This document shows, piece after piece, positions 14,662 through 18,331 of a DNA stretch of 64,000 bases (positions are counted from its first letter, which is position 1; every line of letters starts with the position of its first letter). The notes under the pieces were generated by a model. That model was not told the DNA's origin. It saw only the letters and a list, made by a program, of their open reading frames with translations, and ran no database searches. The stretch comes from Pseudomonas alloputida. GTDB taxonomy: Bacteria > Pseudomonadota > Gammaproteobacteria > Pseudomonadales > Pseudomonadaceae. The stretch covers positions 965,501 to 1,029,500 of the forward strand of contig NZ_CP128540.1 of NCBI RefSeq assembly GCF_021283545.2. The letters are read 5' to 3'. Made by a program: the position numbers and the translations under genes.

Positions 14662-15048
14662 ATGATCAAGCATTACCTGGCAGGCCTGGCACTGGCCTGC
14701 GTGCTACCGGTAGCAATGGCGGACGATTACACGGCGGCCTACGGGCAGTGCATGGACAAGGCCTCCAGCACCGTGGCCATGAGCGCGTGCATCGGGGCCG
14801 AAACACAAGTGCAGGACCAGCGCTTGAACCGGGTGTACAAGCAGCTGATGGGCAAGCTGGATGCCGGGCAGCAGAAGAGCCTGCGGGATGTTCAGCGCAA
14901 GTGGCTGGCCTACCGTGATGGCAATTGCCAGTTCCATGTACAGGCCAGTGGCGGGACCCTGGCGCAGCTGGAAGGTGGCAGCTGCATCATGGACATGACC
15001 CGCGACCGCGCTGCGGAACTGGAGCGGGTGCTTAGCCCTGGGCAGTAG
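14662..15048 (+). CDS. LprI-like (DUF1311) small secreted protein
   Basis: The 128-residue protein has a signal peptide (cleavage likely after AMA, residue 18). The mature DUF1311/LprI core carries four cysteines (CMDKA, ACIGAE, GNCQFH, SCIMDM) and the family pattern LNRVYKQLM...QRKWLAYRD. Relatives include periplasmic lysozyme inhibitors of the LprI type. The ATG 14662 sits behind GGAGG. Role here unknown. Confidence 0.8.
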   Translation: MIKHYLAGLALACVLPVAMADDYTAAYGQCMDKASSTVAMSACIGAETQVQDQRLNRVYKQLMGKLDAGQQKSLRDVQRKWLAYRDGNCQFHVQASGGTLAQLEGGSCIMDMTRDRAAELERVLSPGQ

Positions 15049-15079
15049 CGCCTGTTCAGGCATGATTGGCCCACATTTG

Positions 15080-15159
15080 CAGGCGCGGGTTCAGCCGCGA
15101 ACACCGGCTTTGCCGGTGTCATGCTCCGCGTGGCCTTCTTCGCGGGTGAACCCGCTTCT
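15080..15159. repeat. REP pair interrupted by IS110-family insertion
   Basis: An inverted REP pair flanks a small hairpin (ACACCGGC-TTT-GCCGGTGT, near 15101). The right-hand REP (15136-15159) stops at CCCGCTTCT. Its missing end ACAGGG is found at 17205-17210, after the IS elements. Joining the halves gives CCCGCTTCTACAGGG, identical to an intact REP end near 60238. Confidence 0.8.
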
Positions 15160-15505
15160 ATCAAACAAAAGATAACCCACTGTTCTTTCTAGCGAAAAAA
15201 ACAGGCGCGCGGGGTCAATGGCGGCGAAGTGTTCACTCTTCTATACGTGGTCACAGCAAGCTGTGCCGACAGGGATTAACGCCGATGCCATTTGGGCCAC
15301 TCTCTCATTCGGGAGCAAAGCAGCACACCAGTGCGGTCTACGGCCTCTTTCCCGCGCATTGGGAACCATAGCAAAGTATTCGGCGGCTGACCTACCCGGA
15401 TCAGTCGGCGAATGCTTTTCTAGATCTCGATGTCAGTGCAGATCTGACGTCATGCGCATCCTGTTTGCTGTGCGACAGCGCAGCCCGGAAGGGCTGGGTG
15501 ATCTC
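15160..15505. mobile_element. Transposase-less 346-bp derivative of the adjacent IS110-type element
   Basis: The first 33 bases (ATCAAACAAAA..ACCCA..TGTT) match the left end of the neighbouring complete element at 15508-15540. From 15203 to 15505 the sequence is a diverged copy of that element's right non-coding region (16893-17202), sharing GCGCGCGGGG, ATACGTGGTCACAGC, ACACACCAGTG and GACAGCGCAGCCCGGAAGGG. Everything between, i.e. the transposase gene, is gone. It is therefore a non-autonomous derivative with both ends, abutting the complete copy in the same orientation. Point differences show that the two copies are not a recent duplication. Confidence 0.75.
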
Positions 15506-15542
15506 TCATCAAACAAAATGCAACCCATTGTTTTCTAAGCAC

Positions 15543-16871
15543 TCAAGCGGCCACCAGTTGATACCCCAGTTTCCGGGCTTTGCGAAGCAAAGCCCGGACC
15601 TGCCGGTCTTGGCTTCTGGCTTCGAACTCCTCAAGACCTTGTTCAACATAAGCCTGCTTCTTGGTTAACAGGTTGTACACCAGACGTGCCAACTGATGCG
15701 CAGTGGCTTTGATGGCGCAGCTGGTATCCATTCGAGTCAGTCTGGCTCGGTGCGATGCGCCAATGAAACCCTTGTCGTTACGGGCATTGGATGCAGCCTG
15801 CTTGAGTGCTTGCGCTGCTCGATTGACTATTTTGGGCCCACCACCTGCCAGTCGATGACCGCCGGAAATTCGGGTAGGGGGAGCCAGTCCCAACCAAGAG
15901 CAGAAGTGCTGTGAGGACGGGAAGCGTGATAGATCTGTACCGATCTCCCCTGCCAGCACTAATGCAGTGTCCACCCCAATGGTTGGAATTGCGGTTAGGT
16001 CCACGCCAAGAACTTTCCACAAAGTCTGATGCAATACAGTCTGTTGGGCGCCGTTTCGGTGTGGGCTCCGTAAAGGCTTCTTGGATGGCTCTGGCTTGTT
16101 TTGCAGCACCGGCAACTGCTCTAACGCGGCTTTTATGGCGTCGTCACAATCTGCAATTTGCTGCTCCAGGAAGTCATAGGCAGCCAATTCCTGAGTTAGC
16201 GCATGCAAATGCTCGCGCCGCCAATTGCCATGAAGACTCCGAGCGACAGCCTCCTTGCCTGCCTTGATGCGGCGGTCGGTTAGTTCAGCCAGTTGCACTG
16301 GGTCCCGTTCACCTGCGCAGATGGCCCGCAAAATCTTCATGCCAGTTACACCGGAAATATCACTGATGACATTGGCCAGCTGGATGTTCATTTGGCTCAT
16401 GGCCTTTTGCATCCGGTTCAGCGTCTGCGCCTGGTCTTTCACTTTGGAAGCACGCTGCCTGACCAATGACCGGACGCAGCAGGTCAGATCATCGGGGCGG
16501 AATGCGCCTCTGAGCAGTCCATGAGTCATCAGCTGCCAGATCCACTGGCAATCCAGCACATCTGATTTACGGCCCGTGATTTGCCGAGTTGCTCTGGCAT
16601 TGACGAGATAAACGTCAAAACCGCGCTCGCTGAGAATCTCGTAAATTGGAATCCAATAAACCCCCGTGGATTCCATGGCAACGACCTTGATCCCCAGGCT
16701 TTCAAGCCAGTTAGCCATCTTGAGCAGGTCGTCAGTAAAGGACGTGAACGACTGGACGGGATTTTCGTGCCGGGGATCGACCGCCACGAAATGCTCTCGA
16801 CCACCGACATCGATCGCCGCGCAATCGGGATGGACGACGGTAAAGCGTTGCTTGGAAGGCTTGCGCGCCAT
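15543..16871 (-). CDS. IS110-family transposase (DEDD)
   Basis: The 442-residue protein has the N-terminal RuvC-like DEDD domain: Asp21 in AAIDVG, Glu67 in AMESTGVYW, and Asp104 and Asp107 in KSDVLDCQW. The C-terminal Transposase_20 domain has IPTIGVDTALVLAGEIG and SSQHFCSWLGLAPP...ISGG with the family's catalytic serine region. The frame is intact. ATG 16871 follows GAGG by nine bases; an upstream in-frame start (16907) has no ribosome site. IS110 enzymes recombine donor and target directed by a bridge RNA from the element's non-coding end, here expected upstream of the gene. Confidence 0.93.
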   Translation of the reverse strand: MARKPSKQRFTVVHPDCAAIDVGGREHFVAVDPRHENPVQSFTSFTDDLLKMANWLESLGIKVVAMESTGVYWIPIYEILSERGFDVYLVNARATRQITGRKSDVLDCQWIWQLMTHGLLRGAFRPDDLTCCVRSLVRQRASKVKDQAQTLNRMQKAMSQMNIQLANVISDISGVTGMKILRAICAGERDPVQLAELTDRRIKAGKEAVARSLHGNWRREHLHALTQELAAYDFLEQQIADCDDAIKAALEQLPVLQNKPEPSKKPLRSPHRNGAQQTVLHQTLWKVLGVDLTAIPTIGVDTALVLAGEIGTDLSRFPSSQHFCSWLGLAPPTRISGGHRLAGGGPKIVNRAAQALKQAASNARNDKGFIGASHRARLTRMDTSCAIKATAHQLARLVYNLLTKKQAYVEQGLEEFEARSQDRQVRALLRKARKLGYQLVAA

Positions 16872-17202
16872 GATGAATCCTCGCAGGATAAAGGGCGCGC
16901 GGGGCACACGGTGGCGAAAGGGTTCACTCTCTCATACGTGGTCACAGCTGAATCAGCTGATGCCTACAGGGACTTCACGCCGATACCGTGCGGATCACTC
17001 TCCTACGCGGGTGTGCAGACACACACCAGTGCTGGCTACGATCTCTGTCCCGCGCACACGAACCCTAACAAAGCAAAAGGCGGCTGGCCCTACCGGGCCA
17101 ACCGCCTTTTCTTTTTCAAAATGTCAGCGTCGCTGCGGAACTGAAGCCGTACACCTCATGTTTGCTGCGCGACAGCGCAGCCCGGAAGGGCTGGGTGATC
17201 TC
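16872..17202 (-). ncRNA. Candidate bridge-RNA / structured 5' leader of the IS110 transposase
   Basis: This 331-base non-coding stretch between the outer end and the transposase start fits where IS110-group elements encode their bridge RNA. It is rich in hairpins (CAGCCCTTCCGGGCTG at the outer end, and a 10-bp stem at 17079-17106). A diverged copy is kept in the transposase-less neighbour, which suggests selection for the RNA rather than the protein. On the transcribed strand it carries CCCTGTAG (16964-16971), complementary to the REP half-site next to the element, and ACCCGC (17007-17012), as in the left REP half. Exact RNA ends cannot be set by eye. Confidence 0.5.
17079..17117 (+). terminator. 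Terminator-like hairpin inside the IS non-coding end
   Basis: GGCGGCTGGCCC-(TACC)-GGGCCAACCGCC is followed on the plus strand by TTTTCTTTTT. It looks like a rho-independent terminator for a plus-strand RNA, which would be antisense to the transposase leader. It may equally be a structural stem of the minus-strand RNA, since a weaker T-rich run also follows on that strand. Confidence 0.55.
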
Positions 17203-17218
17203 CTACAGGGTACTGGTT

Positions 17219-18331
17219 CTATTTGCGCGGTTGGCGCAGCGCCCGGGCCTTGAGGTACTCGCGTACTTCCACGGCATCCCCGGCAAACTCGATGCGCTCG
17301 GCCTTGGCTGCGCGCTGGTAGGCATACATCGGGTCGTAGTACTCGTTCAGCAAACCTTCGATCCAGCCCCGGTGCAGGTCTACTGCGCCGCTGCGCTGCT
17401 GCTCTTGCAGGGCTTCGCGCAGCATCTCGGACAAGCGCTGATGGCGCTCTCCACCCAAACGCTTGTAGATATTGGCCATGCTCTGCAGCATGCGCTCGGC
17501 AAACAGCCGGGGACCGTCTTCTTCGCCATGCACGGCCTTGAACTCGGCGCTCAGGTTGACCACGTAGTCGCGCAGGATGCGCTCCACGCGGTTGGTGAAG
17601 CTGTCTTCAAGCCACACCAGCGGGTAATGCTGCATGCCTTGGTACAACTCCAGCGGCACCGTGCAGCTGCCGACAATGCGGCCTTCATCTTCCAGAACGA
17701 ACTGCCCGATACCGCGGGCGCGCTTTTTCAGCACGTCGATTGCCAGCTGGTTTTCAAAGTCGATCTGCGCCGGTTGCGCCGTGGCGCGCTTGCCGAAACT
17801 GGAGCCGCGATGGTTGGCGTGGCCTTCAAGGTCCAGCACGTTGTCCAGCTGGTGCAGCACATCGGTCTTGCCGGTACCGGTCAGTCCACCGACCAGTACG
17901 AAATCGCATTGCTCCACCGCTTGCTGGGTAGTCTCCAGCAGGAAGGTACGCATGGCCTTGTAGCCGCCTTTGACACGCGGGTACTGAATACCCGCCTCAT
18001 CGCGCAGCCAGCCCTGCACGATCTGCGATCGCAGGCCGCCACGGAAGCAGTACAGGTAACCGTCAGGGTGCGCCTTGGCAAACGCTGCCCAGGCCTCCAG
18101 ACGGGCTTGCTTGGTGGCGCCACTGACCAGTTGGTGGCCCAGGGCGATGGCGGCAGCCTGGCCCTGCTGTTTGTAGCAGGTGCCGACCTTCTGCCGCTCC
18201 TGGTCGTTCATCAGCGGCAGGTTTACCACGCCAGGGAAGGCGCCTTTGGCGAATTCGACGGGGGCGCGCATGTCCATCATCGGCACGTCGTCGAGGAACA
18301 GCTGACGGAAGTCGGTGCAGTCGGGGCGCAT
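17219..18331 (-). CDS. selU: tRNA 2-selenouridine synthase
   Basis: The 370-residue SelU/MnmH replaces sulfur by selenium in 2-thiouridine at the tRNA wobble base, using selenophosphate. The N-terminal rhodanese domain has its cysteine in [11 protein letters not shown] (about residue 96). A P-loop follows at [12 protein letters not shown] (about 148). The start ATG overlaps the selD stop, so the two are translationally coupled. The 3' end lies 16 bases from the IS110 right end, but the reading frame is intact. Confidence 0.95.

Follow-up and report, generated by a model that had tools for sequence, protein, structure and literature searches.

We analysed a stretch of 64,000 nucleotides of the Pseudomonas alloputida genome (contig NZ_CP128540.1, positions 965,501 to 1,029,500; hereafter the window, whose numbering is used throughout). 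It carries a copy of ISPpu9, an insertion sequence (IS) of the IS110 family inserted in a repetitive extragenic palindromic (REP) sequence. We consider it very likely that this element encodes a bridge RNA with the guides identified here, and that the transposase-free segment at its right end is a separate satellite, retargeted to the right end of ISPpu9 and moved in trans. We observed guides matching their sites, covariation between the two, a conserved RNA structure, a consistent positioning of the copies and sites that are empty in other replicons.

ISPpu9 and its target

The genome hosting the window is a single contig of 6.44 Mb and has ten intact copies of the element, all with the same ends. 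The copy in the window has the following features:

15505..17199 (-), ISPpu9-like IS110 element; ends common to the 10 intact copies, assignment by transposase identity
15543..16871 (-), transposase gene, 442 aa; domains DEDD_Tnp_IS110 (Pfam, 1.3e-21) and Transposase_20 (Pfam, 1.7e-12)
16872..17199 (-), long non-coding left end, 328 nt, 5' of the transposase
17200-17201 and 15503-15504, core dinucleotide AG (CT on the plus strand), flanking the element on both sides
17200..17206 (-), left target GTAGGAG in the REP; conserved in 11/11 copies (10 intact and the partial copy L011)
15085..15154 (strand not assigned), REP pair; one half gives the right target (AG)CGGGTTCACCCGCGAA

The transposase is 98% identical to protein P0001, named by NCBI 'IS110-like element ISPpu9 family transposase [Pseudomonas putida]' and, judged from this identity, the element is ISPpu9. 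It has the features of the IS110 group of the IS110 family, namely both transposase domains, a long non-coding end 5' of the transposase and, as set out below, a structured RNA whose two loops carry guides that covary with target and donor. Its right end comprises 38 nt after the stop codon. The sole intact copy without a satellite (L006) has AG on both sides, which fits insertion into a REP with duplication of the AG.

Guides of ISPpu9

The bridge RNA and its guides lie in the non-coding end:

16894..17057 (-), bridge RNA domain, closed by stem P1 (GCGCGGG/CCCGCGC); compensatory changes, model match 149 bits
17000..17006 (-), left target guide (LTG) GUAGGAG; identity to the left flank
16929..16935 (-), left donor guide (LDG) AUGAGAG, equal to the element's own right end ATGAGAG; identity to the right end
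17031..17037 (-), candidate right target guide (RTG) AGCCAGC, on the 5' side of the target loop; moderate support

We compared every 8-nt window of the RNA (144 columns) with the flanks and ends of related elements (left flanks of 21 types, right ends of 22), and permuted the types. The LTG window, CGTAGGAG in our copy, was identical to the left flank at 7.19 of 8 positions (permuted 4.87, z 8.9). This was the best of the 144 columns, the next by z reaching 3.2 at 2.38/8. The LDG window (TATGAGAG) was identical to the right end at 7.09 of 8 positions over the 22 types (permuted 5.35, z 8.6), and the next column by z had 3.6 at 2.32/8. When the core AG was left out, the values were 5.19/6 for the LTG and 5.09/6 for the LDG, with 0/100000 permutations in both cases. 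Keeping one element per distinct guide (14 elements for the LTG, 11 for the LDG) again gave no permutation as high, and the eight non-Pseudomonas elements alone gave 5/100000 for the LTG. The match is perfect over all seven positions in 20/21 types for the LTG and in 22/22 for the LDG. Hence, each left guide consists of five bases plus AG. In one relative with a transposase 97% identical (L076), a single base differs in guide and flank alike (GUGGGAG/GTGGGAG).

The evidence for the right target guide is moderate. Counting G-U as half, AGCCAGC pairs with the core G and right flank at 4.43 of 7 positions (permuted 3.39, 3/100000), the highest pairing of all columns, and the value is near 0.004 after correction for the ~145 scanned columns. 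The signal comes from nine non-Pseudomonas elements and the satellite (17/100000). The 11 remaining Pseudomonas types show no excess (39897/100000), as expected if their REP targets are alike. Right flanks of multi-copy types were initially chosen by hand (that of L111 for L092, that of L046 for the satellite, the majority for our IS); other choices gave at worst 11/100000 overall and 90/100000 in the subset. Among rival columns, column 141, in the donor guide, has an equal z of 4.2 with pairing of 3.5/7, and column 150 a z of 3.5. We also considered an arrangement as in IS621, with the guide 3' of the left one (GUGAAGUCCCU, 16968-16978). It is plausible by hand for our copy and, over all types, scores 4.02/8 (z 2.0), whereas the 5'-side window does better (4.43, z 4.2); moreover, GUGAAGUCCCU sits in the donor loop.

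Structure of the bridge RNA

In the structure that we drew by hand, P2 closes a target loop holding the hairpin P3, and P4 and P5 close a donor loop holding the hairpin P6:

17010..17027 (-), hairpin P3 of the target loop; its 3' arm includes ACC of the motif ACCCGC
16937..16968 (-), hairpin P6 of the donor loop; its base includes U, G, U and the last G of CCCTGTAG

The LTG and LDG sit 3' of P3 and P6, respectively, and the RTG sits 5'. We aligned 17 sequences (our element, its satellite, a satellite of Pseudomonas sp. CFII64 and 14 left ends of relatives). The six helices are paired in 93.2% of the alignment cells, against 36-51% for slid controls. Eighteen of the 35 pairs are changed on both sides in some sequence (shuffled mean 7.4, 0/500 shuffles as high); for example, the P6 column pair 98-125 is U-A in seven sequences, A-U in seven and G-C in three. 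One of five structure measures, the number of further standard pair types, was not significant (53/500 shuffles as high). RNAalifold recovers unaided every helix except the outer P1. The structural claim rests on the alignment, because single-sequence folds are modestly better than shuffles for the element's RNA (z -2.1) and not better for that of the satellite (z -0.5). An Rfam search of 14900-17500 returned no bridge RNA family, and one sub-threshold match attributable to chance.

The string matches first noticed in this region do not mark the guides. An earlier note had proposed that the non-coding end contains an IS110 target-binding loop through which the element recognises REPs, with two segments as guides:

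16964..16971 (-), CCCTGTAG; not a guide by the covariation scan
17007..17012 (-), ACCCGC; not a guide by the covariation scan, but a near-constant CCCG motif forming part of the P3 arm plus linker

A bridge RNA with a hairpin-bearing loop is indeed supported, and a guide in it explains the choice of REPs; that these two segments are the target guides is almost certainly wrong. Both strings are present where described and match flank or REP sequence: CCCTGTAG on the minus strand, CTACAGGG at 17203-17210, ACCCGC on the minus strand and AACCCGCTT at 15149-15157. The last was taken for the REP half adjoining the element; a separate 346-bp insert (15157-15502) lies between them, and it is this insert that the REP half adjoins. 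The longest word common to the non-coding end (328 nt) and the 20 nt flanking the element on each side, taken on both strands, has 9 nt. Among 500 shuffled non-coding ends (approximately preserving dinucleotides) 16.2% reach 8 nt and 5.2% reach 9 nt, which makes the string matches weak as a departure from chance.

Scored over 8-nt windows ending at each segment, neither covaries with the flanks: z values for left-flank identity, left-flank complement, right-flank complement and right-flank identity are 0.0, -0.7, 0.0 and -2.4 for CCCTGTAG and 0.2, 0.0, 0.8 and -1.7 for ACCCGC. Windows next to ACCCGC have z 2.5 to 2.8 with a small excess (4.74 vs 4.43; 2.98 vs 2.65), which we take as noise or overlap with the left guide. 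The string CCCTGTAG was found in 4/11 insertion flanks, where the CCC is variable, against 11/11 for GTAGGAG adjoining the left end. Each segment also lies partly within conserved stems, since U, G, U and the last G of CCCTGTAG are paired in P6 and ACC of ACCCGC in P3, and the CCCG core of ACCCGC is near-constant in homologues whose targets are unrelated. The actual left guide sits between the two segments.

A satellite at the right end of ISPpu9

The insert between the element and the REP has its own bridge RNA:

15157..15502 (-), satellite, 346 bp, ssr9-like, without transposase
15195..15359 (-), satellite bridge RNA, ending in a GC stem and a T run (terminator-like); model match 141 bits
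15302..15308 (-), satellite left target guide AUGAGAG, preceded by A; equals the right end of the host element and most orphan sites
15333..15339 (-), candidate satellite right target guide AGACCGC; moderate support
15238..15244 (-), satellite left donor guide AUAGAAG, equal to the satellite's own right end ATAGAAG

The left tip of the satellite is as in the element at 39/40 nt and its RNA retains the bridge-RNA fold; its right end differs from that of the IS. It has a 106-aa frame on the other strand that gave no Pfam match. The left target guide of the satellite reads AAUGAGAG, a match to the ISPpu9 right end GATGAGAG that would explain insertion beside ISPpu9 or at ATGAGAG. The genome has 27 matches to the bridge RNA, 10 in the IS and 17 in full copies of the satellite, which is found at the right end of 9/10 intact IS copies (L006 being the exception) and of the partial copy L011. 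The left neighbour of the satellite is the IS right end, GATGAGAG, in 13/17 cases and lies elsewhere in 4/17 (ATGAGAG three times, ATGGGAG once); in 0/17 is it the end of another satellite. The guides imply an order of events, in which the IS enters a REP and the satellite then enters the IS-REP junction. The IS right end, the AG and the satellite left tip restore the donor junction expected of an IS circle, so the pair may be mobile as a unit.

The satellite corresponds to the ssr9 segment published for ISPpu9. The 2021 paper on this element (PMC8450116), which preceded bridge RNAs, described Ssr9 as a small RNA (sRNA) that is a sponge of the antisense sRNA Asr9, of ~180 nt by Northern blot in KT2440, and left the mobility of the segment open. 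The published ISPpu9 resembles our element in its transposase, which is 98% identical. As in our genome, its targets in KT2440 are REPs with an AG repeat, the ssr9 segment lies downstream of the transposase gene on its strand, bounded by the A and B boxes, and orphan copies occur outside REPs (PMC8450116). For KT2440, IS and segment are described as having identical B boxes (PMC8450116), whereas the two ends differ here (ATGAG / ATAGA). Identical ends would allow a satellite to target a satellite in KT2440; with the differing ends here, tandem satellites number 0/17. One locus of our genome (L073/L075, 6161287-6161406) has a satellite with most of its RNA deleted internally, at the insertion site AATGAGCG.

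Orphan satellites and empty sites

Full-length satellites occur at seven distinct loci outside the IS: four on our chromosome and one each in genomes G103 (CAATGAGAG) and G193 (TCATGAGGG) and on a plasmid. Five have an exact ATGAGAG and two have one mismatch; at the rate of this word in the window (3 per 128 kb of strand), five of seven would arise by chance with a probability of ~1e-22. A further orphan, in G081, has the left flank of our orphan L062, with which it was counted, and a different right flank. Loci L062 and L118 hold the satellite in two species, with the same left flank and different right flanks.

The Pseudomonas aeruginosa plasmid NZ_CP124659.1 carries a copy identical to the satellite over 346/346 bases, preceded by CCAATGAGAG. 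Its left flank is present in 14 plasmid records, this one included, and the three that we inspected of the other 13 lack the satellite and read CCAATGAGAGGCCGGTC; they come from P. putida, Aeromonas veronii and Stenotrophomonas rhizophila. The empty site is CCAATGAGAGGCCGG (3/3 records inspected) and the occupied one CCAATGAGAG-satellite-AGGCCGG, as in a precise insertion with the AG duplicated. The empty site reads AATGAGAG, i.e. all eight bases of the satellite guide. For our orphan L046 the empty site TCTATGAGAAGCGGATC was found in 2/298 genomes searched, against TCTATGAGAG-satellite-AGCGGATC when occupied. In the two genomes with the empty site, the stretch that this copy (~6.286 Mb) interrupts reads by eye as an open frame. 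For L060, the search for an empty site returned loci in which the left flank was not kept up to the site. Phage records gave no match to element or satellite, and viral contigs none to the exact satellite pattern.

Related elements in other genomes

In Pseudomonas sp. CFII64, a 359-bp segment that has no transposase adjoins the right end of a related IS (transposase 71% identical). The host right end is GATAGGAG and the satellite left guide AAUAGGAG; the satellite right end is GATGGGAG and its donor guide UAUGGGAG. With other bases, this pair follows the same logic as ISPpu9 and its satellite.

In a metagenome-assembled genome of Pseudomonadales (L094), the left target of a full IS110 is TTTGTTCCATGAAAG. 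This is similar to the right ends found in its relatives (GTTCCATGCAAG), as though this element too targeted IS ends; there is no second transposase match within the 7.3-kb locus.

How the satellite may move, and other explanations

We propose the following mechanism. The non-coding end of ISPpu9 would be transcribed in this strain into a bridge RNA, whose LTG GUAGGAG (five bases and the core AG) would select the left half of the REP, with the RTG helping at the right half across the loop, while the 7-nt LDG AUGAGAG would recognise the right end of ISPpu9 itself. The satellite would have kept the bridge RNA and the element ends, with no transposase, and its left target guide would have changed to AAUGAGAG. 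Its RNA would be transcribed as well and bound by the ISPpu9 transposase, which, acting in trans, would insert the satellite beside ISPpu9 copies or at other ATGAGAG sites, presumably to the satellite's benefit. With no transposase, precise insertion and empty sites, the satellite looks like a non-autonomous element.

Could ssr9 be merely a regulatory RNA gene of ISPpu9, its likeness to a bridge RNA an accident of duplication? Ssr9 does bind Asr9 in vitro, lowering the effect of Asr9 by ~30%, and more Ssr9 in KT2440 makes transposition slightly lower (PMC8450116). Nevertheless, deletion of ssr9 had little effect on ISPpu9 transposition (PMC8450116), the bridge-RNA fold is conserved, the guides match the satellite's own insertion sites, and there are orphans and empty sites, all of which make a purely regulatory gene unlikely. 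The two roles are not exclusive, and the binding of Ssr9 to Asr9 (PMC8450116) stands. It is very unlikely, in our view, that the satellite arose by decay, is held in tandem by recombination between common ends and cannot move separately. The near identity of the two left tips (39/40) and the arrays with internally deleted IS pieces (L001, L009) would suit this explanation, but it is at odds with the orphans at unrelated loci, with the identical plasmid copy and its precise empty sites, and with a target guide that is unlike that of the IS and fits the satellite's own sites.

Several observations count against a retargeted satellite moved in trans, or against parts of the guide assignment. One of the 21 elements (L101) has a left-guide mismatch within the seven positions. 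The scan of 144 columns found no right donor guide: the best column had z 3.6 with 3.0/8 pairs, and the 5' side of the donor loop 3.67/8 with z 2.3. The right flank of the plasmid copy pairs poorly with the satellite right guide (2/7). The empty allele of L046 has one A more than the occupied site predicts, which could come from slippage or an allele difference. In genome G039, elements consisting of bridge RNA alone (six matches, two of them weak or cut) lie at the REP-like GAGGGAG, so that targeting of an IS is not universal among such elements; a search there gave no homologue of the ISPpu9-like transposase. These G039 elements (L116, L126, L130, L134, L136 and L138; right end AATAGGAG or GGTAGGAG, REP-like target) appear from their sequences to be another lineage of non-autonomous IS110. 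Finally, we re-searched five genomes with bridge-RNA matches and no full transposase: four have no homologue and the fifth a fragment, which leaves present-day mobilisation in those five genomes unexplained.

The retargeted satellite accounts for the position of ssr9, the orphans and the tandems. This suggests the existence of RNA-guided satellites of IS110 elements, for which a short RNA and two ends suffice. We also hold it to be somewhat more probable than otherwise that bridge RNAs gave rise to satellites that borrow the IS110 recombinase, with the end of the host IS made into a home site by five guide-base changes; Ssr9 would then be the guide RNA of a parasite, and not just a regulator. 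If true, one would expect such satellites to arise again whenever a bridge RNA is duplicated. Readable guides are now available for ISPpu9, a REP-targeting element on whose transposition and sRNAs work has been published, and the satellite would offer an example of a bridge RNA retargeted in nature, for which the precise empty sites serve as control.

Other features of ISPpu9 loci

A strong inverted repeat at 17070-17115 (21-nt arms, 86%, T runs on both strands) lies between the left tip and the bridge RNA, and may be the terminator of an Asr9-like antisense RNA. Two loci of our genome, L009 (~2.629 Mb) and L001 (~0.829 Mb), are arrays in which IS and satellite are accompanied by more satellites and by short pieces that comprise the transposase 3' end and the right end. 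Their pieces are bordered by AG then AAGCCAAG or CCAGACTG, both from within the transposase gene, which suggests bridge-RNA-type deletions at secondary sites.

Sample of related elements

Groups represented by one member were L083-L087 and L090 (by L082), L093, L107 and L111 (by L092), L018, L113 and L115 (by L080), L112, L125, L129 and L132 (by L017), L114 (by L079) and L126, L130 and L134 (by L116); L096 and L100 counted as one. Left out were L091 (left boundary settable only via the guide), L089 (RNA incomplete), L031, L108, L123 and L128 (cut), L121, L124, L136 and L138 (degenerate or partial), L073 (internally deleted satellite), L019, L021-L027 and L029 (43-47% identical) with other weak protein matches, and L102-L106, L109 and L110. 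The boundary of L095 was located using the guide, and the result holds without it. L079, with <8 nt of left flank, did not enter the LTG test, and L081 lacks a right flank of its own. For the remaining types we set the boundaries by hand, using end homology and the AG core, so that a bias towards matching ends is possible. Such a bias cannot account for the flanks of multi-copy types, the single-base change in L076 or the empty site on the plasmid.

Comparison with known systems

Miniature inverted-repeat transposable elements (MITEs) and other non-autonomous elements are, as a class, short, devoid of transposase, have ends in common with an autonomous element and are presumably moved in trans. 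The satellite differs from MITEs in carrying its own RNA guide, and hence a target unlike that of its parent. A meeting report (PMC12859917) treats bridge RNA and MITEs apart. We found no description of bridge-RNA satellites in the open-licence PMC literature (preprints aside, and mostly at the level of article listings).

ISPpu10, an IS110 of P. putida, also targets REPs and inserts at the same point as ISPpu9, although the sequences of the two are not highly similar (PMC1525189). Its guides were predicted by Durrant and colleagues in Extended Data Fig. 10 of PMC11208160, and that figure may already draw a guide order of the ISPpu9 type.

IS621 (PMC11208160) resembles ISPpu9 in having the bridge RNA in the left end and left guides identical to the left target and left donor, core included. 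In ISPpu9, unlike IS621 (PMC11208160), the left guides both lie 3' in their loops, with the right target guide placed 5'; the signal for this reversed order, with the right target guide 5' of the left one, is the weaker of those described here. According to PMC11187229, the top-strand match is 3' of the bottom-strand match in ISEc21, which is of the IS110 type, and 5' of it in the tested IS1111 elements. The seekRNAs of the latter have the target-guide order proposed here for ISPpu9, with the top-strand complement 5' and the bottom-strand match 3'. In the same article, the RNA of IS1111 elements is usually downstream of the transposase gene, whereas that of ISPpu9 is upstream, as in IS110. Judged from the sequences compared, the ISPpu9 RNA combines the position found in IS110 with the target-guide order of IS1111, which would put a second guide order on offer for engineers of bridge recombinases.
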